Assembly (NCBI GenBank): GCA_038503075.1
Contig: JBCAML010000006.1
Coordinates: forward strand, 1,922,001-1,986,000
Direction: 5' to 3'
From: Gyromitra esculenta
Lineage: Eukaryota; Ascomycota; Pezizomycetes; Pezizales; Discinaceae
Length of the DNA: 64,000 nucleotides
Shown here: positions 4,208-35,904 of the stretch, in pieces
How the letters are laid out: the number at the start of each line of letters is the position of its first letter
How positions within the stretch are numbered: the stretch's first letter is position 1
Translations under genes and position numbers: made by a program
The notes under the pieces: generated by a model
What the model saw: the letters and a program-made list of their open reading frames with translations, nothing else
The model's database searches: none
What the model was told of the DNA's origin: nothing

Positions 4208-4540
4208 TGGTGTCAGGCATTGGTGTCAAGGGTTAGGTTAAATCACGGTGGCTTTAACGTATAATGCAGACTAGGGTCAAAGATTGTACACCATAGAAAT
4301 GCAAACTACTGCGTATTTTACTTACTGGTTCCAGGTGTCAGGAAACAGAGAGGGAATCATAAAGGCGGTTGGCACCGCCTCTCTCTGTTTCCTCTGACCC
4401 CTTCCATACCGGAATGGCTCTCTGACTAATATACAAACGATCGCTTGCGCTCTCTCCTATACAGGGGCTGCGCCCCCGTACCCCCGATTCCATAATATAA
4501 TTAGGAGATCTGATGGATAAGATAAATATGTAGATAGATA
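4208..4540 (-). repeat. Cassette module, copy 1 (5'-truncated)
   Basis: Shares ordered blocks with the copies at 5545, 7295 and 16915: the GGTGTCAGGC..TGGTGTCA block, TGGCTTTAACGT, a long hairpin at 4334-4400, the block ACGATCGCTTGCGCTCTC, a GGGGCTGCGCCCC palindrome, and CCATAATATAATTAGGA. It lies immediately 3' of the HNH gene. The blocks that would border the next gene's ATG are missing, and no gene follows on the minus strand. Confidence 0.7.
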
Positions 4541-4604
4541 TCACTCCGTTAATAGACATTAAGAATTAATTATTAAAGTACAAAAGCCTTGTCCTCTAGC
4601 CCAC

Positions 4605-5533
4605 TCACGTGACTCCCGCCAAGCGACTGAAGAACTCGAATTCCAATCTCTCTCCCGCCCTAGGACCGCTGAGGATTTCACCAATCATGTCAGAACCGGG
4701 CGGAAAATCACACTCGAATATAGGCTCGCCAGCTCCCTTCATATTCGCCAAGACTGCCTGCCTGAAGTGCCAGCGAAACAGCTGATCCACTGGTCGACTC
4801 GGATCCTCAAGGAATTCCCGATCGAGATGCCTCCCAGCTATCCCTTCTCCATCACGTCTGAAGCACACGATCTTGTGATTATCGTCTGGGTTGATCGACA
4901 CAATGTAGCTGTCGAAGAGCGCGTGAATATCTTGCTTTAGTAACATTCCATTCTGAACCGAGTTGATAGATCCTGCAGACTCGGTAGCCGGCGGAATGGT
5001 GATCCAGCGACCGTAGTTATGCTGCTTCCAGTGCCCTTCGTGTGCCAAAGGAAAGATATGCGCAGCGTCGAAGCCCGTCCAGAATCCATATTCAGCATCG
5101 AGTACCACTTTGCCCGTTATAACGCATCGCCGGTCTCGCTCACGAACAGCATCACGGAACGCCGCAACACGAGTTCCGCTAGCCACCGAAATCGTACGGA
5201 CCAGCCAAGCCTCATTAGTGACCTCGATGGATCCTATTAAAGCTTCGAGTCAGCAGCAGATCATTTACAGCGTGGGAGCGACCTACCATCGGTGAGAATA
5301 TAGTAATTCCCTGGCTGAAGTGCCTGCTCATCCTTCGGGACATCCTTCGAATCATCCATGACATCCTCATGTCGCAAGACGTAGTTGCTGTCGAAAAGCA
5401 GGAAAACTTCTACCATCGAGTAGAGGTTGACATTTGTCACGCCGTTAGTAAGAACGAGGCCCCCGAGAACCGGGCCTGTGGGATCGCTTGCAGCGTAGAT
5501 GTTGACGTTGCGTCCTAGTGCTCGATTAGACAT
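4605..5533 (-). CDS. HNH endonuclease-domain protein (two exons)
   Basis: Spliced as complement(join(4605..5233,5287..5533)), giving 291 residues. The 53-nt intron starts GTAGGT, has a CTGAC branch-like site and ends TAG, and the frame joins exactly across it. Residues 1-100 form an N-terminal domain I do not recognise. Residues ~115-195 carry an HNH nuclease signature of the HNH_2 type common in fungi: C119-V-I-T-G, D138-A-A-H141, N177 and D-I-H186. H141, N177 and H186 are the expected catalytic and metal ligands. The predicted activity is metal-dependent DNA cleavage; the biological role is unknown. The ATG at 5533 lies just downstream of cassette module copy 2. The ORF alone would seem to start at GTG 5186, which is wrong because it omits exon 1. 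Confidence 0.82.
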
Positions 5534-5544
5534 GTTGACCTTTC

Positions 5545-5878
5545 GTCTCTAAGGGTTAGTGTAAGGGTGATGGAGCTTTCCTAGTTAAAGGTGGGGATGA
5601 TGCTACCTATATACCGTTTAATGATCACGGCCGGGTAAGTGGAATTACCGCATCGGGTTGAAACTGGTGTGTGGCGCTGGCTTCTGGTGTCAGGCGTTGG
5701 TGTCAAGGGTTAGGTTAAATCACGGTGGCTTTAACGTGCAATGCAGACTGGGGTCAAAGATTGTACACCATAGAAATGCAAACTACTGCGAATTTTACTT
5801 ACTAGTTCTAGGTGCCAGAAACAGAGAGGGAACCATAGAAGCGGGTTGATACCCGCTCTCTCTGTTTTCTCTGGCACC
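5545..5878 (-). repeat. Cassette module, copy 2
   Basis: A direct repeat of the copies at 4208, 7295 and 16915. It lies directly upstream of the HNH gene ATG. It contains the GTAAGGGTGATGGAG leader block, TATATACCGT, CGGCCGGGTAA..ATTACCGCAT, the GGTGTCAGGCGTTGGTGTCA block, TGGCTTTAACGTGCAAT and the hairpin at 5811-5878. The distal blocks are missing because a MITE and other sequence follow immediately. Confidence 0.8.
5811..5878 (-). other. Long hairpin of module copy 2
   Basis: Outer arms GGTGCCAGAAACAGAGAG / CTCTCTGTTTTCTCTGGCACC pair with a 2-3 nt bulge. The apical stem is AGCGGG / CCCGCT. The equivalent hairpins lie at 4334-4400, 7540-7609 and 29660-29725. Confidence 0.75.
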
Positions 5879-5882
5879 TTCG

Positions 5883-6029: not shown

Positions 6030-6087
6030 CTAGGAAACAATGACATTCAATCCTAACCAGGGAACTCGAACGAAAACAATGAGTTAA

Positions 6088-6690: not shown

Positions 6691-7193
6691 TCACTTTTTG
6701 ATAACATCATTTTGAGCTTCCTTCATGTAAAAGTCGAATCCTCCTTTTAAGACGAGACCACCGAGGAAAAAGTAGACCAAACGGTCGATTTTGGTATCCA
6801 TTCTTTTTCCGAGATCCTTCAAGTCTGACTTAATTTCGTGAATCTCGCGACTCATCTCGGTCAGTTGGATCCTTATGACTGCGACGTCCTAAGAATGCCA
6901 TTATTAATACAATTTCATATCTCGAAAGACTAATTTCAACTCACCTTGTCTAGCTGAAAGAATCGTTCCCACAAAAGGTGTCCTGATGAAGAGTTCCTGG
7001 GAGTATCAGGTTCACCCGGGTCGGTGCCTTCGTCGTACTTCCGCTAAAGTAACTTTCTATGAGCACCTACAAACAAGTACTAGAAGACTTGAAGACTTAC
7101 TCCTGTAGTGGTGAAGCCCCGATGCGTCAGCGGGCCAGCGAGATTACGCAACGAACACCCGGTAAACCGACGTGAAACATGAAGAACTGACAT
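6691..7193 (-). CDS. Small coiled-coil, single-TM protein, probably mitochondrial (three exons)
   Basis: Found by splicing: complement(join(6691..6888,6945..7043,7101..7193)), 129 residues. The introns of 57 nt (GTAAGT...TTTAG) and 56 nt (GTGAGT...CTTAG) fall exactly between codons. Residues 1-31 (MSVLHVSRRF..., ending RGFTTTG) are basic, have no acidic residue and resemble a mitochondrial targeting peptide. Residues 65-100 form a charged coiled coil (VIRIQLTEMSREIHEIK...). Residues ~101-117 are hydrophobic (LVYFFLGGLVLKGG) and probably span a membrane, followed by a short charged tail. The order presequence, coiled coil, C-terminal TM recalls DUF1640/CCDC90-type inner-membrane proteins, but this protein is shorter and membership is unproven. 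It sits between MITEs and module copy 3 in the same-strand array. Confidence 0.78.
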
Positions 7194-7294
7194 CTAGATT
7201 GCAGTTAGTATCAAACCGATGGTCTCGTGTAGATCCGATGGCTCTGGGCTCAATTCGCTATCGCTGTCCTTGTCTGTGGTTCTTGGAGAGAGGT

Positions 7295-7775
7295 TGTAAC
7301 GGGGATGGAGAATCTTGTCAATTCTCGGGGGGATGCTCCATACCGTAAAGTGTTACGGCCGGGTAATAAAATATTACCGCATCCGGTTGACACTAGTGTC
7401 TAGCATAAAACGCTAGTGTCAGGCGTTGGTGTCATGAGTAAGGGTTCAATGCAGTGGCTTGAACGTGCAATTGGGTCCGGTGCTAGATCCCTTACATGCT
7501 AAAGATGCATTCTACTGCGTATATTGCTTACTGGTTCCAGGTGCCAGAAAACAGAGAGGGAATCATATAAGCTGGCGTCAACCAGCTACTCTCTGTTTTC
7601 TCTGGCACCTCCTCATACCGGGTGTGCTCTCTGACTAATATACAAACGATCGCTTGCGCTCTCTCTTATACAGGGGCGAGCCCCCGTATCCCCTTCACCA
7701 TAATATAATTAGGAAATGAATTGAATTAGATAATATACATAAGGCCGGGTAATCGCTCTTCCATCGCCCCATCTA
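7295..7775 (-). repeat. Cassette module, copy 3 (most complete)
   Basis: Contains all blocks in order. The leader block (TGGAGAATCTTGT..AATTCTCGGGGGG) comes first, then CCATACCGTAAAG, CGGCCGGGTAAT..ATTACCGCAT, GGCGTTGGTGTCA and TGGCTTGAACGTGCAATTG. These are followed by CTACTGCGTATATTGCTTACTGG, the hairpin (7540-7609), ACGATCGCTTGCGCTCTC, the GGGGCGAGCCCC palindrome and CCATAATATAATTAGGA. It lies upstream of the 7193 gene and 3' of the PD-(D/E)XK-like gene, so it separates two neighbouring minus-strand genes. Confidence 0.82.
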
Positions 7776-7906
7776 TCGTCTCCCATGTACTCTCCTTCGT
7801 CGCGTACCGGTCGCGTACCACTCGAACCCCTCGTTCTCCTTGTAAATTACCCTATGACTAACACATTAGTCACCGCTTACTCACAAACAAATCGCTTGGA
7901 AATAGG

Positions 7907-8167: not shown

Positions 8168-8272
8168 CTCACCTTCAATCATTTTGAACAATGCCTCCAT
8201 TGCTCAACGCGGCGTACTCTCGCGGTGAGGTTTTCATCAACCTCTCGAGAATCCCCGAGAGAAGCAGTTTAC

Positions 8273-9809: not shown

Positions 9810-9878
9810 TTACGTTGCTTCCTCATCCACACCCTCTACCCCGCTTTTCTACGCTGTCACATAAACCCCAACCCCGCC

Positions 9879-15745: not shown

Positions 15746-16037
15746 TGCGTGCATCTTGCGTGTCATGCGAAAAGATGCACAGTCGTAGCTCAGCATTCGC
15801 CAAGTTTCCCCAGTTGTAACGAAGCCATACACCTCGCCTGCTTTATTGTTGTCTCTTGCATCTTTCATCGAGAGCAAACACTGTTTCATCGCGTCTCCAA
15901 CAGAAGATCTCTTTGCCTCTATGACAAGGACCACTTTTTCTTTTCCCACAGAAATGCGATCAATCACAACAAATTCCTCCTTGTCACCTGTCTCTGAGTC
16001 CACAGAAATGATCTCTTTCTCCCTCCATAACCGTATG

Positions 16038-16439
16038 TCTCAAGGAGTGAGGTTTTAGTCAAGCTCTCAGGTATCTGAGATGAGCAGTGCTACTTGAACA
16101 GGAAACTAACAGTGAGAGTGTACGCCAAGATTCCACAGGCTCTACAAATACTTCGGCCAATGAGGATTCGGAGACAGCGACAGCAAAGGATTACAAGGTG
16201 TAACCGAAGTTTGTATTGTGAAATACAAGAGCGACTATAGAAGACGTTGCTTAGGGAGGAGAGAAAGAAAAGTACAACAAGAGGAAACCCTTCACTTATA
16301 TACCCGTATCACATCCTTCCGATAACAAACATATGACTCATTGTAAAAGAAACCAAAGGAAACCTAATGAGATAGCAATGAAATAAACCATCCAAACATC
16401 TATGCAACTGACTTTACAACATAACAATCATCCATGAAA
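16038..16439 (-). mobile_element. Family 1 solo LTR S4
   Basis: A 402-bp minus-oriented LTR, TCTCAAGG...CCATGAAA, with the exact duplication GTATG (16033-16037, 16440-16444). It interrupts codon 119 of the PD-(D/E)XK-like gene. Confidence 0.9.
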
Positions 16440-16914
16440 GTATGTTGCGTCCCGTCTTGTGCATGAAATCCAAAAGAATAGGATGGGCGATGATGTAGAC
16501 CAAGTCGTTGATGTTGGCTTCATTGAAGTCCGGGTCTGCCTCTGTAGGATAACCTTCGATCTCAAGATGCTCCACTATGTTGTCATAAACCCTCTTCTTG
16601 ATTTCATCCCTCCCGCTTTCAACAGTTGCCAGTGACTTGTGCTGCACCAACATGCTCTCAATTGAAACAGCATTATGGTTAAGTGAATCTAGCCAGATGC
16701 CTAGTCTCTTCTCTGTCTCTGGAATGGTCATATTGGAATAGGAGATAGCCCACTTCGGCTTTCGCTTCTTCTGGTTCGTATTATCGTCAGCCATCCTGTG
16801 TATATTAATGCGTCAGTATTACTTCTCGTCGACCGTAGGGAATAGAGACTCATCTTCTGTAATCTCACGATAGTTGTTGGTTAGGGTCAGTATCCTTAGT
16901 GTCGCCATGCTAGT

Positions 16915-17153
16915 TCCATCCTTGAGAGTGGTTGTAAGGGTGATGGAGAATCTTGTTAATTCTCGGGGGGGAACACTGCCAATATACCGTAAAGCGAGAC
17001 GGCCGGGTAATGAATTACTCCCTAATCGGGACTGGTTCTTGTGACACCTGGTGTCAGGCGTTGGTGTCAAGGGCTAGGGTTAAATGCTGTGGCTTTAACG
17101 TACAATTGAGTCTGGTGCTAGACATTGTCCTAGCATAGAGTGAAATCTACTGC
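16915..17153 (-). repeat. Cassette module copy 4, gene-proximal part
   Basis: Holds the leader block (GTAAGGGTGATGGAGAATCTTG), TATACCGTAAAG, ACGGCCGGGTAAT, GGCGTTGGTGTCAAGGG and TGGCTTTAACGTACAATTG, and stops at CTACTGC, where element P2 inserted. The module resumes after P2 and again after E3. It lies upstream of the PD-(D/E)XK-like gene. Confidence 0.82.
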
Positions 17154-17572
17154 TTTCACGGATGAAACTGGGTAACGGGTTAGGATGAAGTTGTTGGTAG
17201 TAACGAAAGGTCGCTGGGATACAATGGCTTTGTTGTTCGGTTGTATCTCGGTTGTTGTCGGGTTGTTGCTGGTGTTACAGGAGAGCGGGGTATTTAAGTG
17301 AAGGATTTCGGTCGTTATTGTTTCTCTTCTTCTTCTTTCCTTAAGCAATGTTCTCGTTTACCTTCTCCTGTACTCGTCGGAAATACTATTCGGTTCTACC
17401 TCAGAACCCTTGCTGTCGCTGTTCCCTCCGCTGCACTTATCTCTCCTTGAGATAGACCCCTCGTAGAACTTGTAGAAACGCTGGACTCTTTGAACGCGTT
17501 GTAACCTCGCTTAAGTAGTACTGTTTACCTTCAGGGATACTGAAGGGCTTAACTCGAGGCACAACCGTGAGA
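17154..17572 (+). repeat. 5' LTR of P2
   Basis: 419 bp, TTTCACGG...CCGTGAGA. TATTTAAG at 17291 is followed ~52 bp later by the mutated self-primer motif. A U5 hairpin CTTCAG / CTGAAG with loop GGATA lies near the 3' end. Confidence 0.88.
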
Positions 17573-17642
17573 TTACGTTGCTTCCAACATCCACACCTTC
17601 TACCACTCCATCATCACAGGCATACCTAGCCCTCTTCCCCTC

Positions 17643-18941
17643 ATGGAAGGAGTCGCCGTCGCCGCGAAACGCTTTCCCACTAGAGAAGCTTTCGCTCAAG
17701 CCTACCGAGACGACCCTGCAGAACTTTATAATGAACTCAGGGAGTTAAATCAAGCCCTGGAGGACCAAATTGATGTCCTCCAGGAAAGCGAACGGGAAAA
17801 TGAGGTAAAACTCAACACTGCCCGAATCCAAACCGACAATGCCCTCCGTCATGCTACAGAACAAGAACAAAGGGTCAATGAAGCTGCCAGCCTAATTGCC
17901 CGACTACGACAAGAACGGAATGAGGCTCGATCCGCCCCCCAAGCACCCCCTGCTCCACCCAACCTCACAGCAACCCCACCCCCGCCGTCAAACACTCACC
18001 GGTCAGAACGCATGCCGGATCCAGAGAAGTTCGATGGATCCCGAGCAAAACTCCCCGGCTTCATACTCCAATTACGCTCCAAGTTAACCGTCAATCGAGA
18101 CCGCTTCGCCAACGAGACTACAATGATACTTTACACTATTAATCGACTAGAGGGGGCAGCCCTGGAACAGGTCCACCACACGGTCCTCCCCTCAGGTCTC
18201 ACCACTTGGAACAGTGTAGAACAGCTCATCACCGCCTTAGAAACTGCTTTTGGAGACCCAGACCCAACTGGCACCGCTCGACGAGAACTCCACCAACTCC
18301 GCCAGGGAAAGCGCGATTTTTCAGCTTACCTGGCCGATTTCCAAAGGATCATGGGCCAGTTAAACTTCGATGAAAACTCAAAAATGGACGCCCTGGAACA
18401 TGGCATGTCGGAGGAACTGAAAGAAGCAATGGTCTTTGCCCCCATCGCCCCGGCCACACTACCCGAGATGATTCTCACCCTCACCCGATTGGATAATCGT
18501 ATCCGAGCCCGCAAAGCAGAGAAACGAGGAAACGCTCGCGATAATATGGGCCAATTCAGCGCTCCAGCCGCCTTCACTCCTGTCTCCTCCTTCACCCCGG
18601 GAGGACTAGCCCCCATGGACCTATCTTTTGGTCGCACCAGCAACAACTCTTGCCCCCCTCAGGACCAACGATACACGATGGTTAATGGGAGAAGGAAACT
18701 TTCGGAGGAAGAGAAACAGTGGCGCCGCTCCACTGGAAAATGCATGTTTTGCGCGGCCCCTGATCACTCCTACGCCAACTGCCCCTCCGCTCCCAAGAAA
18801 CCAACCATGAGAGGAGCTCTCACCGCGCCACCTGCCACCCGTACCCCCCCCGCCTCCTCTCTTCCACCGCCACCACTTCCCTCTCAGTTTTTTGCGCTAG
18901 AATCAGCAGACTCTTCCAATGAGTCTTTAAACAAGTCCAAC
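17643..18941 (+). CDS. gag: P2 Gag, stop codon lost
   Basis: The Gag frame starts at MEGVAVAAKRF. An acidic coiled-coil region (~residues 20-95) precedes a Pro-rich linker. The capsid-like domain carries ERMPDPEKFDGSRAKLPGF and FGDPDPTGTARRELHQLR...FSAYLADFQRIMGQLNF, then PMDLSFGRT and the CX2CX4HX4C knuckle C-MF-C-AAPD-H-SYAN-C. Gag packages the RNA into particles. The usual TAG after ..SLN has become AAG (18933), so this copy reads ~70 codons further (to 19148) before a stop. The slippery site itself is intact. Reading from 17643 matches the shorter Gag of element B. Confidence 0.85.
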
Positions 18942-18970
18942 CAAGGCCGAACAGTGACCCCACCTTGGTT
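18926..18970 (+). promoter_or_regulatory. P2 -1 frameshift signal
   Basis: TTTAAAC at 18926-18932, then a stem AACCAAGG (18939) with CCTTGGTT (18963-18970). Confidence 0.8.
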
Positions 18971-21537: not shown

Positions 21538-24500
21538 GTAGCTCCCCTCTTCAAGCGTGAGCTCCTGCGAACACTAGGAGTAGCCAACGTCTGGGTACCC
21601 AAAAACTTTTCCAGTGCCGAAGTATCTACAAGGTCCTCCACAGGTTCCCAGGTAGGATGGGCATAGCCGGTCCATTCGACGAGGTATTGTTGTTTATTGC
21701 GATATATACGTTGATCCAAGATTTTCTCGATATAATACTCTTCTTGCTCGTTGACAACAATAGGCGCCGGTGGAGGGATAATTTGTCCTGGGAGAGCATC
21801 GTGAGCCGCGGGTTTTAACAGAGAAACATGAAATACCGGATGATATTTGACCGACGAAGGGAGGTCAATCTCATAGGCAAATGGGGAAACAATTTTCTTC
21901 ACTGTGTAGGGACCCATCCATTTCCAATCTAATTTCCTGGCGTTACGAGTAGTTCTAATATTCTTCATGGATACGAAGACTTGGTCGTTGATTTGATACG
22001 CCGGGGCTGGAGTTCGGTGTTTATTAACAGCGGTTTCTTGGATGTCTTGAGCGGTTCTAATCTGTATCCTAAGGTGATCGTACAGCTCCTGCATCTTATT
22101 GGCAAAAGTAGCGGCGTCTTGACTCTGAGGGGTGGTCGTCGGGGGAACGAGGGAAGTATCGAATCGAGGGTGGTATCCGTAATTAGCTAAAAAGGGGGAT
22201 ACTTTCGTACTCGATTCTTGGTTATTAGCCGAGAATTCCGCCATAGGTAGCCATCTGTTCCAATCTTCTTGTTGATAGGATACGTATGATCGGAGGTACT
22301 GTTCCATTACCGCGTTTAATCTCTCTGTTTGCCCGTCTGTTTCTGGGTGGAAAGCAGTGGACATCCGGGCTCGTATTCCTAAACGTTGGCATAATTCTTT
22401 CCAGAAATGGGCAGTGAATTGAGTGCCTCGGTCAGAAGTAATGTGCGTGGGTAAACCGTGTAGCTTCCAGACGTGTTGTAGATATAGATCAGCTACGTCT
22501 CTGGAATTGACGGTGGTATTACAAGGGATAAGGTGACGCATTTTAGACAGACGGTCAACCACTACCATAATAGCGTCATAGCCGTTTGATTCAGGTAGGC
22601 CGGTAACGAAATCCATAGAGATTTCTTGCCATGGTCGGTTAGGAATAGGTAGGGGGCGGAGAACTCCTTGCGTGCGTTGGGTGGCTGGTTTTGCTTTCTG
22701 GCAGATATGGCAATTTCGGACATATCTACTGATTGACTCCCTCATCTTGGGCCAATAGAATCCTCTGGTAAGGAGTTCGAAAGTCTTGTCCCGACCTGGG
22801 TGGCCAGCGGCGGGGACGTCATGGTGTCTTTTGATCAATTCAAGGCGGAGGGGAGCAAAGTCTGGAACGTAGATACAATCTCTGTAATAGAGTTTGTTGT
22901 TCTCTTCTTTGCACTCGCTTAAGGTGATCTCCTTGGATTGTTGGTCCTTATTTCGTAACGCTAGGAGGATTTTTTCAGGGAATTTATCAGCGGTATATCC
23001 TTCTTTAAAGAGTTTTAATAAGGGGGCGTCCAATTCAGCGGCTTCATTTGACAAAGAAGCCGACAACAAACTTAGCTTGGGATCTATATTTTCTTTCTTT
23101 AGCACCACCTGACTTTGGTGTGCTAGTCTTTCATCCCCTTCCTTGGGGAGATCTCCCGATCTCCGAGTTAAAGCGTCCGGTTTCCCTCCTTCTTTGCCTG
23201 GTCGGTATGTGATTACGAAATCGAAGCGGGATAGGTACTCAGCCCATCTGGCTTGACGGCGGTTGAGTTGTTTGGTGCTCATAAAATACTCGAGGTTCTT
23301 ATGGTCACTGATTACGTCAATAGGATGTTTCGAGCCTTCGAGTTCCGGGCGCCATTCTTCAAAGACCCGGATAATCGCCAGCAGTTCCTTGTCGTAAATT
23401 TCGTAATTACATTCCGCGGGGGAATGTTTCTTCGAAAAGAAGGCCACCGGGTGTAGAATGCCATTATCATCGTATTGCGATAGGACTCCTCCGGATACGA
23501 AATCTGAAGCATCCGTTTCCACGATAATTTTCTTATCAGGATCGAAATGGATAAGAATCGGGGCGGTAGTAAAGGCGTGTTTGAGGTTTTCGAAGGCTAC
23601 GTCGGCTTCGACCGACCATTCAAAAGTAATACCTTTCCTAGTGAGGGCAGTAAGAGGGGCAGCTAATTTAGAGAATCCTAGTATGAACCGGCGGTAAAAA
23701 TTGGCAAAACCCAAAAACGCTTGAACATCTTTTACACTCCTGGGAGTTCCCCATTCTCGAACAGCTTTGAGTTTTTCTTCATCCATTTTAATACCATCGG
23801 GGGTGAGGATAAGACCAAGGTACTTAGTAGTCTGTACCTCAAACTCGCATTTTTCGGGTTTTAGCAGGATGTCATTGTTCTTGAGAGTTTGAAGGACTTT
23901 GCGGACGTGAATCTGGTGCTCTTCGAAGGTATCACTGTAGATGAGGATATCATCTAGATAGGCGGTGCAGAAGATGTCTAGGTATTCCGTGAGACAGTCA
24001 TTTACGAATCGTTGGAACGTTCCGGGGGCATTGGTTAGACCGAATGGCATAACCTGGTATTCGTAAAGACCATACCGAGTGCGGAAGGCGGTTTTCCATT
24101 CATCTCCCTCCGCAATGCGCACTTGGTGATATCCGTCGCGAAGGTCTAATTTGGTGTACCATTGTGCCTTTGCAAGCCGGTCCAGCGTTTCTCGGATGAG
24201 GGGAGAGGTATAACGATCCTTGACGGTAATAGCATTAAGGCCTCGGTAATCCACGCAGAGTCGTAGGGAACCGTCAGCCTTTTTGACAAATAGCACAGGG
24301 GATCCGGCGGGGGAGGAGCTAGCACGAATGAATCCTTTCTCAAGATTGTCCTCGATATACTTTTTTAAGACAATCAGCTCTTCTCGGGACATCCCGTACA
24401 GTGGTCCGAAGGGAGCGTCTTGTCCTTCTATCAACTGTATCTTATGGTCATAGGAGCGGCGGGGGGGAAGTCCTTGGGCTTTCTTCTTGTCGAACATGTC

Positions 24501-25222
24501 CAAAAATTCATGGTATTCTGCCGGAATACGTGACCTCCACTCCTCTTTGGTTGTTTTGTCATCTATGATTTTGTTTATTTCATACAATGACATGGCGTAG
24601 GCTTGTAAATTTCGTTTTCTGGTGAGAGTTCTAAAACTGGCAGCGCCAATAAATGAAAGGTTTAGCCTAGGGGGAGATGGGATCGAGGAGGTGGAGACAA
24701 TTGGTGAACGAGGAGCGCAGTGGGTGGTGCAGAGTTTGGAATTAAATTCAATGCGTTTATCGGCAAAATGGAGACGGACATCATGGTAATTCATCCAAGG
24801 TATGCCTAGGACAAGGGGGTAATGACCAAGTTGTGTCACGAAACAGGGGCTTGTTCACAGTGGTTTTGTACCGAGAGATTGAGATTGGCGATGTGTGTGA
24901 TGTCTCCTGAGCTAACCGGACGACCATCGATGACTTCAAGTTGGCGGGGAGTTTTTAAGGGGGTAAGAGGCAGGGAGTGGTGACTCGCGAATTTCTGATC
25001 AATAAATGCAAATCCGGAGGCTCCAGTGTCTAGTAAGGCGTGTGTTTTTATGATTTTATTGCTATGGGAAATATTGCACGATATTACAAAATGTTCCCCA
25101 TCCAATTGATCCTCCACGCTTATACCGGAAACCGAAAACCCAGAAATCGAAAATGCAGATAGAGGTAAGAAATTTTGAACCAAGGTGGGGTCACTGATCG
25201 ACCTTGGTTGTACTAGTTTAAA
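21525..25222 (-). pseudogene. pol: M1 pol, full domain set with one 1-nt frameshift
   Basis: Enters from the slippery site at 25222. The first part carries the protease (LLDTGASGFAFID) and runs to ~24840, where one G of a G-run is missing. The remaining 1104 codons (24839-21525) are open. RT has [12 protein letters not shown] and YLDD (~residue 295 of that ORF). RNase H has D (ETDASDFVSGG), E (NYEIYDKELLAI) and D (DHKNLEYF). Integrase has HHDVPAAGH..CHIC, then [16 protein letters not shown] and [12 protein letters not shown]. The C-terminal chromodomain is YLVEWTGYAHPTWEPVEDL. All catalytic residues are present, so only the frameshift stands between this copy and a full Pol. Confidence 0.92.
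25178..25222 (-). promoter_or_regulatory. M1 -1 frameshift signal
   Basis: The slippery TTTAAAC (minus strand, 25216-25222) precedes TAG. The stem AACCAAGGT / ACCTTGGTT (25201-25209 with 25178-25186) is perfect over 9 bp. Confidence 0.85.
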
Positions 25223-26541
25223 GACTCGTTGGCTGAGTCTGCTGATTCTAAAGCGAAAAATTGAGGAGGAAGTGGTGGCGGTGGCAGGGAGGAGGCGGGG
25301 GGTGTACGGGTGGCAGGTGGGGCGGTGAGGGCTCCTCTCATTGTAGGTTTCTTGGGGGCGGAGGGGCAATTGGCGTATGAGTGATCTGGGGCGGCACAGA
25401 ACATGCACTTTCCGGTGGCACGGCGCCATTGCTTTTCTTCCTCTGAGAGTTTCCTTCGGCCGTTAACCATTGTGTATCGTTGGTCTGGGGGAGGACGAGA
25501 GAGATTGCTGGTGCGTCCGAAAGATAGGTCCATAGGGGCTAGTCCTCCTGGAGTAAAGGAGGAGGCAGAGGAGAAGGCGGCGGGGGCACTGAATTGACCC
25601 ATATTATCTCTGGCGTTTCCTCGTTTCTCAGCCTTGCGGGCTCGGATCCGGTTATCCAGTCGGGTAAGGGTGAGAATCATCTCAGGGAGGTTAGCGGGGG
25701 CAATCGGTGCGAACACCATGGCTTCTTTCAACTCCTCTGACATGCCGTGTTCCAATGCGTCCATCTTCGAGTTTTCGTCGAAATTCAACTGGCCCATGAT
25801 TCTTTGAAAGTCAGCCAAATAGGCTGAGAAATCACGCTTTCCTTGACGGAGCTGGTGAAGTTCTCGTCGAGCCGTGCCAGTTGGGTCTGGGTCTCCAAAA
25901 GCAGTTTCCAGGGCGGTTATGAGTTCTTCTGCGTTGCTCCAAGTGGTGAGGCCTGAGGGGAGAACCGTGTGACGAACCTGTTCTAGAGCGGCTCCCTCCA
26001 GTCGATTGATGGTATATAATATCATCGTGGTCTCGTTTGCAAAACGGTCTCGGTTGACCGTAAGTTTGGAGCGCAGCTGAAGTATGAAACCGGGGAGCTT
26101 AGCTCGGGACCCATCGAATTTCTCCGGGTCTGGCATGCGCTCGGAGCGGTGGGTAGAGGCTGTCGGCGGTGGGGGAGTGGCGGTAAGGTTTAATGGAGCC
26201 GGGGGGGCGGAGAGGTTTGCTCGGGCTTCATTTCGTTCCTGGCGGAGCCTGGCGATGAGGTTGACAGCTTCTACAACTCTTTGTTCTTGTTGCGTGGCGT
26301 GTCGGAGGGCATTGTCGATCTGGATTTGAGCAGTGCTGAGTTTTACCTCAGAGTCTTTCTCGTTATCCTGAAGGATGCTTATTTGGTCCTCTTGGCTCTG
26401 GTTTATTTCTCGAAGCTGATTGTAGAGTTCAGCCGGGTCGTCTCTGTATGCTTTGGCAAAGGCTTCCTTAGTGGGGAAGCCCTGGGTTGCTACGGGGGCT
26501 CCTTCTGTGTTGGAGGAGGAGGGATCAACGGAGGAACTCAT
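25213..26541 (-). CDS. gag: M1 Gag, intact
   Basis: 442 residues from MSSSVDPSSS to ..ESLN-stop. An N-terminal coiled-coil-prone region spans ~residues 45-105, with a Pro-rich linker at ~115-135. The capsid-like domain begins at ERMPDPEKFDGSRAKLPGF and contains FGDPDPTGTARRELHQLRQG. It is followed by LDNRIRARKAEKRG, PMDLSFGRT and the CX2CX4HX4C zinc knuckle (CMFCAAPDHSYANC) that binds element RNA. The length equals the family norm (~430). Pol overlaps it and is reached by -1 frameshifting at the last codons. Confidence 0.92.
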   Translation of the reverse strand: MSSSVDPSSSNTEGAPVATQGFPTKEAFAKAYRDDPAELYNQLREINQSQEDQISILQDNEKDSEVKLSTAQIQIDNALRHATQQEQRVVEAVNLIARLRQERNEARANLSAPPAPLNLTATPPPPTASTHRSERMPDPEKFDGSRAKLPGFILQLRSKLTVNRDRFANETTMILYTINRLEGAALEQVRHTVLPSGLTTWSNAEELITALETAFGDPDPTGTARRELHQLRQGKRDFSAYLADFQRIMGQLNFDENSKMDALEHGMSEELKEAMVFAPIAPANLPEMILTLTRLDNRIRARKAEKRGNARDNMGQFSAPAAFSSASSFTPGGLAPMDLSFGRTSNLSRPPPDQRYTMVNGRRKLSEEEKQWRRATGKCMFCAAPDHSYANCPSAPKKPTMRGALTAPPATRTPPASSLPPPPLPPQFFALESADSANESLN

Positions 26542-26583
26542 GATGAGTTAGCGGTAGAAGGTGTAGATAAGGAAGCAACGTAA

Positions 26584-27015
26584 TCTCACGGTTGGCTTCT
26601 TCTTAAGTCTCACGGTTGGCTTCTCGTTAAGCCCTTCAGTATCCCTGAAGGTGAGCAGTGCTACTTAAGCGGGAAACCAATACATTCGAAGAGTGCAGTA
26701 TGGTCTACAGGTCCTACGGGGGGTGTACTTCAAGGCGAAGTATCGGTGATGTTTTCACAGCGACAGCGAGGATTCTAAGGCAGAATCGAAGTGGAATTAT
26801 AACAGATACAGTAGAAGTGGAACGAGAACGTTGCTTAAGGAAAGAAGAAGAAGAAAACCAAACACGATCGAAATCCATCGCTTAAATACCCCGCTTTCCT
26901 TAACAAAACTCATAGCCGAAAAATAACCGAAGAACAAAGAGATTGTACAATCCTCCAAATCACAATACAACCGACAACCCAACCACGACTTACTATCCGA
27001 GATCAATCCATGAAA
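26584..27015 (-). repeat. 5' LTR of M1 with duplicated tip
   Basis: 432 bp. The first 24 bp (26584-26607) are repeated almost exactly at 26608-26631, so there are two LTR termini in tandem next to the primer site. Confidence 0.88.
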
Positions 27016-29633
27016 ATAAAAGATGTCCAAGCTTTCTTAGGCTTTGCTAATTTTTACCGTCGCTTTATCCTGGGATTCTCTAAACTCGCCGCCCCTCTCA
27101 CCGCCCTCACCAGGAAAGGTATCACCTTTGAATGGTCTGTCGAAGCCGATATAGCTTTCGAAAACCTCAAACATGCCTTCACCACCGCCCCGATCCTTAT
27201 CCACTTCGACTCCGATAAAAAGATCATCGTGGAAACAGATGCCTCAGATTTTGTGTCAGGAGGAGTCTTATCCCAGTACGATGATAACAGTATATTGCAC
27301 CCAGTGGCTTTCTTCTCGAAGAAACATTCCCCCGCGGAATGCAACTACGAAATTTATGATAAGGAACTATTGGCCATCATCCGTGTTTTCGAAGAATGGC
27401 GCCCTGAACTCGAAGGATCAAAGCACCCAATCGATGTGATTAGCGACCATAAAAACCTCGAGTACTTCATGAGTACCAAGCAATTGAATCGACACCAAGC
27501 AAGATGGGCCGAGTATTTGTCCCGCTTCGATTTTGTAATTACCTATCGCCCAGGTACCCAAGGAGGAAAACCCGATGCATTAACCAGAAGATCAGGAGAT
27601 CTTCCCAAGGAAGGGGATGAAAGATTGGCACACCAAAGCCAAGTGGTGTTAAAGAAAGAGAATATTGATCCTAAGCTAAGTTTGTTGTCGGCTTCTTTAC
27701 CAAATGAAGCCGCTGGACTGGAAGCCCCCCTTTCAAAACTCTTCCAAGAAGGATATAGTACTGATAAATTCCCAGAGAAAATACTCGCGGCGCTCAAAAA
27801 CAAGGAACAACGTTCAAAGGAGATTACCCTAAGCGAATGCAGCGAGAACAAAGGTCTCTTATACTATCGAGAATGCCTCTATGTCCCTGACTCTGATCCT
27901 CTTCGATTGGAACTTATCCGAAGGCATCATGATACCCCAGCAGCAGGCCACCCAGGACGAGATAAGACCTTCGAACTTATAGCAAGAAGTTTTTATTGGC
28001 CTAAAATGCGGGAATCGGTTAGTCGATATGTACGAAACTGCCACATCTGCCAGAAAGCCAAACCTACTACCCATCGTACTCCAGGTGTTCTCCGTCCCTT
28101 ACCCATTCCTCAACGACCCTGGCAAGAGATCTCGATGGACTTTGTTACAGGCCTCCCTGAATCCAATGGCTATGATGCGATCATGGTAGTTGTGGACCGA
28201 TTATTGAAAATGCGACACCTCATTCCATGTAATACTACCGTTAATTCCAGAGATGTCGCTGACCTTTACCTACAACATGTCTGGAAGTTACACGGCTTAC
28301 CTACACATATTACTTCTGACCGAGGCACTCAATTCACTGCCCATTTTTGGAAAGAATTATGCCAACGTCTAGGAATACAAGCTCGAATGTCCACTGCTTT
28401 CCACCCAGAAACAGATGGGCAAACAGAGAGACTGAACGTAGTAATGGAACAGTACCTTCGATCATACGTGTCCTACCAACAGGAAGACTGGAGTAGATGG
28501 TTACCTATGGCGGAATTCTCTGCTAATAACCAAGAATCGGCGAGTACGAAAGTATCCCCCTTCTTAGCTAATTACGGCTATCATCCTCGATTTGATACTT
28601 CTCTTGTTCCCCTGGCAAACACCCCTCAGAGTCAAGACGCTGCTATCTTTGCTAGTAGGATGCAGGAATTATACGATTATCTTAGGACACAGATTAGAAC
28701 CGCTCAAGATATTCAGGAGACCACTACCAATAAATACAGAACTCCAGCCCCGGCGTACCAAATCCATGACCAGGTCTTCGTATCAATGTAGAACGTTAGG
28801 ACTATTCGTAACGCTAGGAAACTGGACTGGAAATGGATGGGTCCTTACGCGGTAAAGAGAATTGTTTCCCCCTTCGCCTATGAAATAGACCTCCCCTTGT
28901 CGGTCAAATACCACCCTGTATTTCATGTTTCTCTCCTCAAGCCTGCCCCTAATGATGCTCTTCCGGGACAAATTATTCCCCCACCAGCCCCAATCGTGGT
29001 CAACGATCAAGAAGAATATTATATCGAAAAGATCCTGGACCAGTGTAACCATCGAGGACAACTTCAGTACCTTGTGGAATGGACTGGATATGCTCACCCT
29101 ACCTGGGAACCTGCCGAGGATCTCCAAGATACCTCAGCTCTCGACACGTTCCTCAACACGATGACTGCTATCATTCCTAAGGTTCGCAGGAGCTCATGCT
29201 TGAGACAAGGAGCTACTTTCACGGATAAAACTGGGTAATGGGTTAGGGTGAAGTTGTTGTTAGTAATGAAGGGTCGCTAGGATATAATGGCTTTGTTGTT
29301 CGGTTGTATCTCGGTTATTGTTAGGCGGTCGTCTGTGTTACGGGAAAGCGGGGTATTTAAGTGAAGGATTTTGGTCGTTGTGGTTTCTCTTCTTCTTTCT
29401 TTCCTTAAGCAACGTTCTCGTTTACCTTCTCCTGTATTTGTCGGAATACTATTTCGGTTCTATCTCAGAACCCTCGCTGTCGCTGTCCAATCCATTGCAC
29501 TTATCTTGCCTTGAGATAGACCCCTCGTAGAACCTGTAGAAAACGCACTTTTCGAACGTGTTGTAACCCGCTTAAGTAGCACTGCTCACCTTCAGGGATA
29601 CTGAAGGGCTTAACTCGAGGCTCAACCGTGAGA

Positions 29634-29802
29634 ACTGCGTATATTCGCTAACGGTTCTAGGTCTTAAAACAGAGAGGGAATCATAAAAGCGGTTGACACC
29701 GCTACTCTCTGTTTCCTCTGACCCCTTCCTCATACCGGAACGGCTCTCTTACTAATACATAAACGATCGCTTGCGCTCTCCTATACAGGGGCTGTACTCT
29801 TG
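29634..29802 (-). repeat. Cassette module copy 4, middle part
   Basis: Continues from 17153: ACTGCGTATATTCGC, the hairpin 29660-29725 (apical stem AGCGGT / ACCGCT), ACGATCGCTTGCGCTCTC, ACAGGGGCTGTACTCTTG. E3 inserted at TCTTG. Confidence 0.8.
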
Positions 29803-30214
29803 TCTCACGGTTGTGCTTCGAGTTAAGCCCTTCAGTATCCCTGAAGGTGAGCAGTGCTACTTAATCGAGGGACAACACGTTCAAAGAGTGCAGCGTCTCT
29901 ACAAGTTCTACTAAGGTCTATCTCAAGGCGAGATAAGTGCAGCGAGGTAGACAGCGACAGCGAGGGTTCTGAGGTAGAACCGAGATGATATTTGGTAGTT
30001 ACAGCAGAAGGTAACGAGAACGTTGCTTAAAGAAAGAAAAGGAGAAGACAAAGAGTGATCAGAAATCCGTCGCTTAAATACCCCGCTTTCTCAACCAAAA
30101 ACCCAATAGCCGATGACACCCAAAAATACAATAGCATTATGGCACAATAACCCCATAGCCTATATCCAACCTCGAACCGAAACCTAACCCTTATCCAATC
30201 CTTAATCCGTGAAA
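29803..30214 (-). repeat. 3' LTR of E3
   Basis: 412 bp, TCTCACGG...CCGTGAAA. Confidence 0.88.
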
Positions 30215-33200
30215 GTAGCCCCCCGTCTTAAGCGTGAGCTCCTGCGAACTTTAGAACTAGTAGCAGTCGTCATAGCTAAGAATTCATCGAGGGCAGTAGT
30301 ATCCTGAAGATCCTCCACGGGTTCCCAGGTAGGATGGGCGTAGCCAGTCCATTCGACAAGGTATTGTTGTCGTCCGCGATATGTTCGTTGCTCGAGGATT
30401 TTCTCAATGAAATATTCCTCCTGTTCATTAACAACAATCGGAGATGGGGGAGGAATAACTTGTCCTGGAAGAGGGTCATGGGCGACCGGCTTAAGAAGTG
30501 ATACATGAAAGACAGGATGATACTTGACGGAGGACGGTAAATCAATCTCATACGCAAAGGGTGATACTATCCTTTTTACCGGGTAGGGCCCCATCCACTT
30601 CCAATCGAGTTTCCGGGCATTACGAACGGTCCGAATGTTCTTCATTGATACGAACACTTGGTCATTCACTTGATAGGCCGGGGCAGGAGTTCGGTGTTTA
30701 TTGGTGGAGGTTTCCTGAATGTCCTGAGCTGTTCGAATCTGAGTTCGGAGGTGATCATACAAGTCTTGCATCTTAGTTGCAAAGGTCAAAGAATCCAGAC
30801 TTTGAGCCGTGGTTGTTAAAGGAATAATAGAGGTATCAAAGCGGGGGTGATATCCATAGTTGGCGAAAAACGGTGAGACCTTGGTACTGGCTGACTCCTG
30901 GTTATTAGCGGAGAATTTGGCCATGGGCAACCACTTGCTCCAGTCGTCTTGTTGGTAGGACACATAGGAGTGTAGGTATTGTTCCATAAAGGCATTGAGT
31001 CGTTCCGTTTGTCCGTCGGTTTCAGGGTGGAAGGCTGTTGACATCCTAGCTTGAATTCCTAAGTGCTGGCAGAGCTCTTTCCAGAAATGGGCGGTGAACT
31101 GCGTTCCCCGGTCGGAGGTGACATATGTTGGTAGGCCATGGAGTTTCCACACATGTTGAAGGTAGAGATCTGCAACGTCCCGTGAATTAACAGTAGTATT
31201 GCACGGGATAAGATGTCGCATTTTCGATAGGCGGTCTACTACTACCATAATAGCATCATAACCGTTCGACTCCGGGAGGCCTGTCACGAAATCCATCGAG
31301 ATTTCTTGCCAAGGGCGATTTGGGATAGGTAGAGGACGGAGAACACCTTGTGTACGTTGGGTGACCGGCTTAGCCTTCTGACAGATGTGGCAATTGCGTA
31401 CATAACGACTAATTGTTTCTCTCATCTTTGGCCAGTAAAATCTTCTACTTATAAGTTCAAAGGTTTTATCTCGTCCTGGGTGTCCTGCTGCGGGGATGTC
31501 ATGATGTCTTTTAATGAGTTCCAAGCGAAGGGGGTCGAAGTCTGGTACGTAAAGGTTTCCTCGGTAGTAGAGCCTGTCATTCTCATTGGTGCACTCGCTA
31601 AGGGTAATTTCCTTTGACTGTTGTTCCTTGTTCTTCAGTGCTAGAATTATTTTTTCAGGGAACTGGTCAGCGATATATCCTTCTAGAAAGAGTTTTTCTA
31701 GGGGAGCGTCCAATTCAGCGGCTTCATTTGACAAAGAAGCCGACAACAAACTTAGCTTGGGATTAATGTTCTCTTTCTTCAACACTATTTGGCTCTGGTG
31801 TGCCAGTCTTTCATCCCCTTCCTTGGGAAGATCTCCTGATCTCCTAGTGAGTGCATCTGGTTTTCCTCCTTGGCTTCCAGGTCGATACGTTATTACAAAG
31901 TTGAAACGGGATAAGTACTCGGCCCATCTAGCTTGACGTCGATTGAGTTGTTTAGTGCTCATGAAGTATTCGAGATTCTTATGATCACTAATTACATCGA
32001 TCGGGTGCTTTGATCCTTCAAGTTTTGGGCGCCATTCTTCGAAAACACGGATGATGGCCAACAGCTCTTTGTCGTAAATCTCATAGTTGCATTCCGCCGG
32101 GGAATGTTTCTTCGAGAAGAAGGCTACTGGGTGTAGGACACCGTTATCATCGTACTGGGATAGAACTCCTCCGGACACGAAGTCTGAAGCATCTGTCTCC
32201 ACAATGATTTTCTTGTCTGGGTCGAAATGGATGAGGATTGGGGCAGTGGTGAAGGCGTGCTTGAGATTTTCGAATGCTATATCAGCTTCAACGGTCCATT
32301 CGAAGACAAGACCTTTTTTGGTGAGGGCGGTGAGCGGGGCAGCGAGTTTGGAGAATCCTAGGATGAATCGACGGTAAAAATTGGCAAAACCCAAAAATGC
32401 TTGGACATCTTTTACACTCTTTGGTGTCCCCCATTCTCGGACGGCTTTAAGTTTCTCCTCGTCCATTTTGATACCATCAGGGGTGAGAATGAGACCAAGG
32501 TACTTAGTAGTCTGTACCTCAAACTCGCATTTCTCCGGTTTTAACAGGATATCGTTATTTTGGAGGGTTTGGAGGACCTTGCGGACATGAATCTGATGTT
32601 CTGCGAAGGTGTCGCTGTAGATGAGAATGTCGTCCAGATACGCGGTGCAGAATATATCTAGATATTCTTTCAGACAGTCGTTGACAAATCGTTGGAACGT
32701 TCCGGGTGCGTTAGTTAAGCCGAACGGCATAACTTGATATTCATATAGCCCATAACGGGTGCGGAAGGCGGTCTTCCACTCATCCCCTTCAGCAATACGG
32801 ATTTGATGGTAGCCATCTCGGAGGTCGAGTTTGGTGTACCATTGTGCTTTTGCTAATCGGTCAAGTGTTTCACGGATGAGGGGAGAGGTGTAACGATCCT
32901 TGACTGTAATTGCATTAAGGCCACGGTAGTCTACACATAACCGGAGGGAGCCGTCGGCCTTTTTGACAAAGAGGACAGGGGATCCGGCGGGTGAAGAACT
33001 GGCTCGGATAAACCCTTTCTCGAGATTGTCCTCAATGTATTTTTTTAAGACGATAAGCTCTTCTCGAGACATTCCGTACAGAGGGCCAAATGGTGCTTCC
33101 TTCCCATCTTGAAGTTGTATCTTGTGGTCATAGGGTCGGCGTGGGGATAGTCCTTGTGCTTTCGCTTTATCGAACATGTCCAAGAATTCGTGGTACTCGA

Positions 33201-33902
33201 TTGGGATCCTTGATTTCCATTCTTCCTTGGTTGTTTTTTTGTCTATGAGTTTGTTTATTTCATAGAGCGACATGGCGTAAGCTTGGTGGTTGCGTTTCCT
33301 AGTAAGGGTTCTAAAACTAGCAGCGCCAATAAACGACATGTTTAGTCGGGAGGAGTAGGGATCGATACGGAGGTGACAATGGGGGAGTTGGGGGCACAGT
33401 GCGTGGTGCAGAGTTCAGAATTGAACTCAATGCATTTATCGGCAAAGTGGAGGCGGACATCATGGTGGTTCATCCATGGGATTCCTAACACAAGGGGGTA
33501 ATGGCCTAGTTGGGTTACAAAACAGGGTGCTTGTTCTCGATGGTTTTGAATGGATAAATTGAGGTTGGTGATATGGGTGATGTCTCCTGATGAAACAGGG
33601 TGTCCATCTATTACTTTGAGTTGGCGGGAGGTTTTTAAAGGGGTAAGAGGTAAGGAATGGTGACTCGCGAATTTCTGATCAATAAATGCAAATCCGGAGG
33701 CTCCGGTGTCTAGTAAAGCGTGGGTTTTTATAATTTTATTGTTATGGGAAATATTGCACGATATTACAAAATGTTCTCCATCCAATTGATCCTCCACGCT
33801 TATACCAGAAACCGAAAACCCAGAAATCGAAAATGCAGATAAAGGTAAAAAATTTTGAACCAAGGTAGGGTCACTGATCGACCTTGGTTGTACTAGTTTA
33901 AA
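30202..33902 (-). pseudogene. pol: E3 pol with one 1-nt frameshift
   Basis: The protease part (LLDTGASGFAFID) is open from the slippery site to 33342, where one C of a CCCC run is lost and a stop follows. The next ORF (33339-30202, 1045 aa) starts MSFIGAASF and is complete. It carries RT with YLDD, RNase H (DASDFVSGG, YEIYDKE, DHKNLEYF) and integrase ([29 protein letters not shown]). The integrase D-x-E segment DGQTERLNAFME has V-to-F before the catalytic E. The chromodomain is LVEWTGYAHPTWEPVEDL. Damage is minimal and recent. Confidence 0.92.
33858..33902 (-). promoter_or_regulatory. E3 -1 frameshift signal
   Basis: TTTAAAC at 33896-33902 (minus), then a perfect 9-bp stem AACCAAGGT / ACCTTGGTT. 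Confidence 0.85.
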
Positions 33903-35197
33903 GACCCGTTGGCTGAGTCTGCTGATTCTAACGCAAAGAACTGAGGTGGAAGAGGTGGTGGCGGCAAAGAGGAAGCGGGGGGTGCAGTAAGGGCTCCCCT
34001 CATGGTGGGTTTTTTGGGGGCGGAGGGGCAATTGGCATAAGAGTGGTCCGGGGCGGCGCAAAACATGCATTTTCCAGTGGAGCGACGCCACTGTTTTTCT
34101 TCCTCCGACAGCTTTCTTCTCCCATTAACTATCGTGTACCATTGGTCCTGAGGTGGGCGAGAGTTATTACTAGTGCGACCGAATGATAGGTCCATGGGAG
34201 CTAGTCCTCCTGGGGTGAAGGAGGAAGCAGGGGTGAAGGCGGCGGGAGCATTGAATTGGCCCATGCTATCACGAGCATTTCCTCTCTTTTCTGCCTTGCG
34301 GGCTCGAATGCGATTGTCGAGCCGAGTGAGAGTGAGGATCATTTCCTGAAGATTGGCTGGGGCGATGGGTGCGAATACCATGGCTTCCTTTAGTTCCTCC
34401 GACATTCCATGTTCCAGTGCGTCCATCTTGGAGTTCTCATCAAAGTTTAACTGCCCCATGATCCTCTGAAAGTCGGCTAGGTAAGCAGAAAAGTCGCGCT
34501 TCCCTTGACGGAGCTGGTGAAGTTCTCGTCGAGCGGTACCGATTGGGTCTGGATCTCCGAAGGCAGTCTCTAGGGCGGTGATAAGTTGTTCCGCACTAGT
34601 CCAGGTAGTAAGGCCGGAGGGAAGGACAGTATGGCGGACCTGCTCCAGTGCTGCCCCTTCTAGCTGATTAATGGTGTAGAGGACCATTGTAGTTTCGTCT
34701 GCGAAGCGGTCTCGGTTAACTGTTAACTTGGAGCGCAGTTGAAGGATGAATCCGGGAAGTTTGGTCCTGGATCCGTCAAACTTCTCCGGGTCTGGCATAC
34801 GTTCTGACCGGTGAGAATTCATTGGCGGAGGTGGGGTAGCAGCGAGGTTGCGTGGAGCAGGAGAATCTTGAATAGTGGCCCGGGCTTCGTTTCGTTCTTG
34901 CCGTAATCGGGCAATCAGGTTTGCGGCCTCGGTGACTCGTTGATCCTGCTCGGTAGCATGGCGGAGGGCGTTATCGGTCTGGATCCGGGCGGTGTTGAGT
35001 TTCACTTCGTTTTCCCGTTCACTCTCCTGGAGGACATCGATTTGGTCCTCTAGCGCCTGGTAAAGATCTCGGAGTAAGTTGTAATGCTCTGAGGGATCTT
35101 CTCTGATGGCTTGGGCGAAGGCTTCTCGTGTGGGGAAGCGTGGGGAAGAGACAGCAATTCCTTCCATGGAAGGGGCAATGGGAGCGGATGAGCTCAT
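33893..35197 (-). CDS. gag: E3 Gag, intact
   Basis: 434 residues, MSSSAPIAPSMEG... to ..GSLN-stop. An acidic coiled-coil-prone segment spans ~residues 30-110, followed by a Pro-rich linker. The capsid-like region carries ERMPDPEKFDGSRTKLPGF and FGDPDPIGTARRELHQLRQG. PMDLSFGRT and the knuckle CMFCAAPDHSYANC (CX2CX4HX4C) are present. It lies ~200 nt inside the 5' LTR, the usual place. No stop or frameshift. Confidence 0.92.
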   Translation of the reverse strand: MSSSAPIAPSMEGIAVSSPRFPTREAFAQAIREDPSEHYNLLRDLYQALEDQIDVLQESERENEVKLNTARIQTDNALRHATEQDQRVTEAANLIARLRQERNEARATIQDSPAPRNLAATPPPPMNSHRSERMPDPEKFDGSRTKLPGFILQLRSKLTVNRDRFADETTMVLYTINQLEGAALEQVRHTVLPSGLTTWTSAEQLITALETAFGDPDPIGTARRELHQLRQGKRDFSAYLADFQRIMGQLNFDENSKMDALEHGMSEELKEAMVFAPIAPANLQEMILTLTRLDNRIRARKAEKRGNARDSMGQFNAPAAFTPASSFTPGGLAPMDLSFGRTSNNSRPPQDQWYTIVNGRRKLSEEEKQWRRSTGKCMFCAAPDHSYANCPSAPKKPTMRGALTAPPASSLPPPPLPPQFFALESADSANGSLN

Positions 35198-35393
35198 TAT
35201 GAGGTTGGTGGACGGGGTGAGGTGTTTGTTTGTAGGTATTCTTGATCAAGCCACTCAGGGGTGACTTCAGCGAGGGGCTTTCTCAGTGTCAAACAGGGGA
35301 AGATGTTTAGAATGGATTGGTGAATCCAAGCGATGATTCCCATGAGGGGGGAGCGCTTTGGGGTAGAAGGTGTAGATGGAGGAAGCAACGTAA

Positions 35394-35810
35394 TCTCACG
35401 GTTGAGCTTCAAGTTAAGCCCTTCAGTATCCCTGAAGGTGAGCAGTGCTACTTAATCAAAGGCACAACACGTTCAAAGAGTGCAGCGTCTCTACAAGTTC
35501 TACTAAGGTCTATCTCAAGGCGAGATAAGTGCAGCGAGGTAGACAGCGACAGCGAGGGTTCTGAGGTAGAACCGAGATAATATTCCGACAAATACAGAAG
35601 AAGGTAAACGAGAACGTTGCTTAAAGAAAGAAGAAGAAAAGACAAAGAATGATCAACAATCCGTCACTTAAATACCCCGCTTTCTCAACCAAAAAAACCC
35701 AATAGCCGATAACACCCGAAAATACAATAGCATTATAACACAAAAACCCCACATCCTGTATCCAACCTCGAACCGAAACCTAACCCTTATCCAATCCTTA
35801 ATCCGTGAAA
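35394..35810 (-). repeat. 5' LTR of E3
   Basis: 417 bp, TCTCACGG...CCGTGAAA; TATA-like CTTAAATACCCC and self-primer AACGTTGCTT (plus-strand reading). Confidence 0.88.
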
Positions 35811-35904
35811 TCTTGTACCCGCCGTTCCATAATCTTACTAGGAGATGAACTCGATTAGTACTATGGTACATTGTAAGCTGGGTAACTCGACTATCATCGC
35901 CTTG
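35811..35904 (-). repeat. Cassette module copy 4, distal part
   Basis: Resumes after E3 with TTCCATAATCTTACTAGGAGATGAA and GCTGGGTAACTCGACTATCATCGCC, matching the 3' blocks of copies 1 and 3. It ends where element Z begins (possible duplication CCTTG). Confidence 0.7.

Follow-up and report, generated by a model that had tools for sequence, protein, structure and literature searches.

The question raised by this locus is how genes that are unrelated to each other came to carry the same leader. In a stretch of 64,000 nucleotides (nt) of Gyromitra esculenta (contig 6, JBCAML010000006.1, positions 1922001-1986000; the window), a module of about 0.5 kb lies upstream of several open reading frames (ORFs), and a preliminary description had taken the arrangement for a possible gene-cassette system, in which direct repeats with a common leader allow non-homologous genes to be gained, lost or shuffled, perhaps with a selfish or defence role. 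The explanation that we favor, and hold to be probable, is that a promoter region was multiplied by local duplication, and that ectopic recombination or gene conversion joined it to unrelated genes. The module, as read from its sequence, would be a composite promoter with a palindrome-rich upstream part, a core of GACACC repeats and a TATA-like box. Module and genes would have been multiplied together in a small fungal gene array, and exchange within and just downstream of the module would have attached it to HNH_2, PD-(D/E)XK and coiled-coil/transmembrane (TM) ORFs, unrelated genes thereby carrying one promoter.

Eleven recognizable copies of the module (A to K) were found at three places in the genome (47,100,447 bases, 23 contigs), namely two stretches of contig 6 about 70 kb apart and one of contig 14. 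Positions are given below for the window or, where indicated, for the loci L009 (contig 6, 2027001-2037000) and L010 (contig 14, 105001-115000).

4184..4540, minus strand: copy A, with the 5' part, the hairpin (4334-4401) and the GACACC core (4210-4229); its homology stops before the TATA-like part and no gene follows
5540..5882, minus strand: copy B, with the hairpin (5811-5878), the core (5687-5706) and a TATA-like box (5608-5616) about 75 nt ahead of the ATG
7270..7850, minus strand: copy C, with the hairpin (7540-7609, tip inverted) and the core (7416-7435); read by eye beyond 7790
16915..17153, minus strand: copy D, 3' piece, with the core (17051-17070) and a TATA-like box (16981-16989)
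29634..29802, minus strand: copy D, middle piece, carrying the hairpin
35811..35904, minus strand: copy D, 5' piece, with DNA resembling a long terminal repeat (LTR) at higher coordinates
L009 1780-1900, contig 6 minus strand: copy K, 5' part only
L009 3175-3660, contig 6 minus strand: copy E
L009 4640-5020, contig 6 minus strand: copy F
L009 6250-6476, contig 6 minus strand: copy G, without hairpin
L010 448-600, contig 14 plus strand: copy J, 3' part only
L010 4340-4890, contig 14 plus strand: copy H
L010 5735-6110, contig 14 plus strand: copy I, without the 3' third

Pairwise identity between copies was approximately 67-94% over 108-519 nt (alignments longer than 100 nt), and the ends of the module, judged by eye, were ragged. 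Copy C was the longest uninterrupted copy in the window. The four copies first described there (4208-4540, 5545-5878, 7295-7775 and a copy in three parts) were real, and further copies were found outside the window. The single orientation that had been noted also extended to these, as all eight copies on contig 6 lie on the minus strand and all three on contig 14 on the plus strand.

The copy in three parts, D, is one module interrupted twice by LTR retrotransposons, with 5-bp target duplications (ACAAG and GCAGT). Once rejoined, its flanks were 75% identical to copy C over 519 nt and 77% identical to copy E over 480 nt. The strands of the two elements were taken from their ORFs:

17154..29633, plus strand: LTR retrotransposon splitting module D, target duplication GCAGT
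29803..35810, minus strand: LTR retrotransposon splitting module D, target duplication ACAAG

The LTR pairs were 88% identical in the former (17154-17572/29217-29633) and 93% identical in the latter (29803-30214/35394-35810). A young minus-strand LTR element (21126-27015, LTRs 97% identical) is nested in the older element at 17154-29633 (LTRs 88%). The window as a whole, as read from its ORFs, is largely nested Ty3-type LTR retrotransposon DNA of a fungal chromosome.

Outside the clusters, the module was searched for in the whole genome. Three DNA queries gave 12, 11 and 9 matches and two queries from the 5' part gave 7 and 2, all of them inside the clusters; the limits of these matches were 1926-1952 kb and 2028-2034 kb on contig 6 and 105-112 kb on contig 14. 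Chance was excluded by a 23-nt core pattern (at most 3 mismatches), since all seven of its genome matches fell inside the clusters and its reversed control gave none. A shorter hairpin pattern gave eight perfect matches in the clusters and five with two mismatches on other contigs, its reversed control giving nine. At this sensitivity the module was confined to the three loci. Model R2 gave no match (E <= 1) in the neighboring loci L011, L012 and L074-L078 (L074 is contig 14, 95001-105000), and an Rfam scan of the window, L009 and L010 gave none at the gathering score. Since viral contigs scanned for exact module patterns also gave none, a viral source was without sign at that sensitivity. In the titles and abstracts found in the open-licence PMC literature, the module was undescribed.

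Each of the eight copies that retain the 3' third is followed by an ORF of its own orientation. These ORFs comprise three HNH_2 nucleases, a broken PD-(D/E)XK gene, three small coiled-coil/TM ORFs and one coil. The three copies lacking that third (A, I and K) precede no clear gene, the ORF after copy I being a weak candidate only. Listing the gene beside each copy hence favored the preliminary description, except at 4208-4540, where no gene follows the copy. Gene models and splice sites were read by eye; in the window they are as follows:

4605..5533, minus strand: HNH_B gene, exons 5287-5533 and 4605-5233, 291 aa, DUF7881 and HNH_2
6691..7193, minus strand: CC_C, small coiled-coil ORF with a C-terminal hydrophobic segment, 129 aa, three exons
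15753..16861, minus strand: broken PD-(D/E)XK gene, with a remnant of the 5' untranslated region (UTR), an N-terminal part, an insertion at about 16037-16442 and a C-terminal part to about 15753

A TATA-like box was found in the 3' third of most of the eight copies; in B, E, F and G it lies about 50-140 nt ahead of the predicted ATG. Its place between hairpin and start, and its absence from copies A and I, which have no clear gene, fit a promoter. The module thus appears to be a promoter-like leader shared by non-homologous genes (HNH_2, PD-(D/E)XK and coiled-coil ORFs), which upheld the earlier proposal of a common promoter or leader. It may drive transcription, and the genes may be co-expressed.

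The gene behind copy D revealed how such a leader could have been acquired. Its product is predicted to belong to the PD-(D/E)XK superfamily from a conserved D...E-x-K motif and a restriction-endonuclease-like core; among solved structures, none matched a PD-(D/E)XK profile by sequence at E <= 1. This identity agreed with the preliminary description. The gene is interrupted by the insertion and truncated at about 15753. Comparison with the paralogs makes a start at 16794, preceded by an intron in the 5' UTR, probable; a 155-aa model with an extra N-terminal exon was dropped, since the paralogs indicate that intron and start. Six paralog loci were found on contigs 9, 12 and 18, all of them matching the copy-D gene by blastn. 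Some of the paralogs form close pairs (contig 9, 1160421-1162691; contig 12, 1154345-1160644). Their upstream DNA was compared at L068, L069, L070 and L072 (L071 had no start anchor and L073 was left out): it was 83% identical between L069 and L070 over 324 nt, 72-75% between L072 and both of these, and shared in part by L068. The copy-D gene matched its paralogs only downstream of about 16880 (by eye) or 16861 (blastn), and the module ends at about 16915. Since the paralogs have upstream DNA in common and copy D diverges just below the module, the copy-D gene seems to bear the module in place of its paralogs' upstream region, as a chimeric promoter replacement. With about 1.5 kb of flank at each locus, neither model R1 nor model R2 found a credible module at the six PD-(D/E)XK-paralog loci or at 12 HNH-paralog loci (7 distinct places), R1 giving two matches across them (E 0.07 and 1.7). 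An unbroken relative of the gene is encoded in Morchella snyderi (P0130), 93% identical over the N-terminal 118 residues and, by eye, at least as close to the C-terminal piece. Furthermore, over 90% of its length one of the paralogs was 96% identical to a protein of M. snyderi.

Recombination was also visible within the module. When the ten copies other than K were aligned, the nearest neighbor of a copy shifted along its length. Copy A resembled F at the 5' end (90%), D (92%) and E (89%) immediately ahead of the hairpin, and B and G beyond it (93-97%); copy F, by eye, carried a leader of the C/D/E/J type before an HNH start of the G type. A PHI-type test on eight copies gave 0/2000 permutations with a window of 40 and p 0.0035 with a window of 80. 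Among the HNH units, B and G were closest in part of the module (94-96%), F and G in part of exon 1 (81-86%), and B and F near the intron and at the beginning of exon 2 (84-89%), with no pair standing out in the other blocks. The M. snyderi HNH relative P0001 was 89-94% identical to F and/or G over the first ~100 aligned residues, and then 92-100% identical to B. These comparisons show that the first third of the HNH genes was exchanged between paralogs, in one lineage or the other. The turnover postulated in the preliminary description, with breakpoints in the module, was borne out by this exchange and by the different upstream regions of the PD-(D/E)XK genes, the breakpoints lying both inside and beside mosaic copies. 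For P0001 and P0130 alike, the longest contig listed is 2,066,341 bases, and because of this equality part of the linkage between HNH and PD-(D/E)XK genes is probably old. That part probably predates the two species, which speaks partly against turnover and is drawn from that figure only.

The hairpin of about 70 nt, present in eight copies (A-F, H and I), suggests another explanation, that the module is transcribed and the hairpin acts as RNA, either in a cis-regulatory leader or as a small RNA of its own. Across its 25 pairs 93.8% of cells were paired, a value that 0/500 shuffles reached, six pairs were changed on both sides (4/500 shuffles), and the covariation score was 0.167 (0/500), with slid controls lower, in an alignment fitted to the structure, which favors the result. 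The fold z-scores of the eight hairpins ranged from -3.1 to -7.3, and that of the whole copy C was -4.5. Nevertheless, the gene-proximal half showed no consistent excess of structure in seven copies (z +0.1, -4.3, -1.4, -2.4, -0.1, -2.3 and -1.9), no Rfam family matched at the gathering score, copy G precedes an HNH gene without any hairpin, and the hairpin lies upstream of the TATA-like box. The tip in copy C points, moreover, to template switching at the DNA level as a source of the paired changes. In six of seven comparisons with other copies this tip fitted better when reverse-complemented, with one tie and mostly small margins; in the best case, against copy E (L009 3449-3529), 2 of 18 positions mismatched by eye when inverted and 8 when not, and the stem of copy C is perfect where that of copy E is not. 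It is hence a candidate template-switch event. PMC8794818 treats a loop inversion with compensatory change as the product of a template switch, calls such events extremely rare and names them the strongest possible support for its model. Since template switching yields paired changes, covariation of the hairpin is by itself no proof of a functional RNA, and a structured RNA is in our judgment improbable.

In a true gene-cassette system, the hairpin-bearing direct repeats would be recombination sites, as in integrons, and the units would move. Unrelated ORFs that all point the same way, with foldable repeats between them, would be expected of it, as would mosaic copies and the exchange within the HNH genes. 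PF00589 tyrosine recombinases, on the other hand, had no match in the genome in a six-frame search that recovered 14/14 controls and from which introns could hide one; similarity switches at several places of the module instead of at one point, and promoter-like parts travel with the units. As the module is not dispersed, is unknown to Rfam and was accompanied by no detected tyrosine recombinase, dedicated cassette machinery was unsupported, and the genome-wide cassette system envisaged at first gave way to ordinary duplication, gene conversion and ectopic recombination, which suffice; we consider it very unlikely. A remnant of a transposable element that landed upstream of the genes would suit a region so rich in mobile elements, and is disfavored because the searches returned the module in three gene clusters only, where its orientation and place relative to the ORFs are constant; this we hold to be the least probable origin of all.

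Duplication of a promoter with ectopic recombination or gene conversion has, for its part, several observations that weigh against it. The TATA-like boxes were read by eye; that of copy C is damaged (CGGTATGGA, 7337-7345), those of D (~190 nt) and J (~270 nt) lie farther from the start, and the ORF after copy H has no ATG at the expected position. The coiled-coil ORFs are short, predicted genes for which relatives are scarce (in a large database, two for CC_C, both short). With fewer copies the PHI-type test was weaker (p 0.006 and 0.117 for six copies, 0.035 and 0.108 for seven; windows 40 and 80), partial or decayed copies can escape the genome searches, since copy K was unlisted by one DNA query, and a plain promoter has no need of hairpin covariation. 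The hairpin may have aided recombination by DNA fragility. A bolder and rather unlikely extension is a eukaryotic cassette array without recombinase, in which palindromic promoter modules would be hotspots exchanging nuclease and membrane-coil genes and placing new effectors under one switch, perhaps in conflict or allorecognition, a HeLo gene lying about 3 kb from the contig-14 cluster.

The genes beside the copies were compared with databases. Both domains of HNH_B exceeded the curated cut-offs (PF25324, 92.7 bits against 27; PF13391, 57.2 bits against 21), which identifies it by sequence as an HNH_2 nuclease with DUF7881. It had 738 relatives at E <= 0.001; among the 120 matches listed, those with a species name were fungal, the closest being from M. 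snyderi (85%) and Maublancomyces gigas (81%). Solved structures gave six weak ligase matches only (E ~0.1) with P0001 as the query. The ORF after copy I (L010 6202-6786) had a weak HicA match (PF07927, 22.2 bits, below the cut-off of 27), and PADLOC had no model for it or for P0001. The coiled-coil ORFs were not called one family because the shuffle tests were weak or coil-restricted: similarity between CC_C and CC_E was limited to the coil (0/500 shuffles as good), that of CC_E to CC_J (11/500) and to the ORF after copy H (33/500) was weak, and CC_C and CC_J showed none (150/500).

A gene relative also lies in the window at one end of the contig-6 array:

2400..3350, minus strand: degenerate relative of a BTB-like gene, matching L009 6665-7945 at the opposite end of the array by eye

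The BTB-like ORF at L009 6665-7945, which flanks the contig-6 array, had a weak BTB score (12.7 bits, cut-off 20.5). An AIG1-like GTPase ORF (L009 9256-9999; 20.5 bits, cut-off 27) adjoins the second contig-6 cluster. Additionally, the ORF at L074 5616-7334, about 3 kb from the contig-14 cluster, matched HeLo (34.1 bits, cut-off 23.2) and DUF7580 (29.4 bits, cut-off 27). Its neighbors include a kinase ORF and an ORF with ankyrin repeats. Genes of the HeLo-domain type are linked with fungal cell-death genes.

Local gene clusters can give rise to promoter capture and chimeric genes through ectopic recombination and gene conversion, and the local array, the mosaic copies and the junction just upstream of the coding region are alike here. 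To our knowledge a promoter is usually common to the members of one family, whereas in this case one palindrome-rich module of about 0.5 kb stands before ORFs of at least three unrelated types (HNH_2, PD-(D/E)XK and coiled-coil), and up to six. A single genome therefore displays a promoter-like region placed on unrelated genes, with the junction and the mosaic copies still readable; should the genes prove to be co-expressed, the recruitment of nuclease-type genes by fungi into one regulated group would become testable. Integron gene cassettes carry attC hairpins, and here too folded repeats lie between unrelated ORFs of the same orientation. The present array differs in being eukaryotic, in having no integrase detectable in six frames, in the promoter-like part of each unit and in the lack of a fixed switch site. 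The template-switch hairpins of PMC8794818 share the loop inversion and the better-paired stem seen in copy C against copy E; that work treats RNA genes, and the hairpin described here lies in promoter-like DNA. The inverted tip of copy C would belong to this rare class, a caution against taking covariation as proof of a functional RNA. Finally, Crinkler (CRN/CR) effectors, according to PMC5289972, evolve modularly with HNH and restriction-endonuclease-type nuclease domains, as may be the case here. HNH_B has DUF7881 and HNH_2 and no Crinkler domain; Crinkler Pfam families were absent at E <= 1 from HNH_B, the N-terminal PD-(D/E)XK piece and the paralog L069, and were not among the best 25 of the 56 Pfam matches of CC_E. 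In the Crinklers of that source the common part is a protein header, whereas in G. esculenta it is non-coding DNA.

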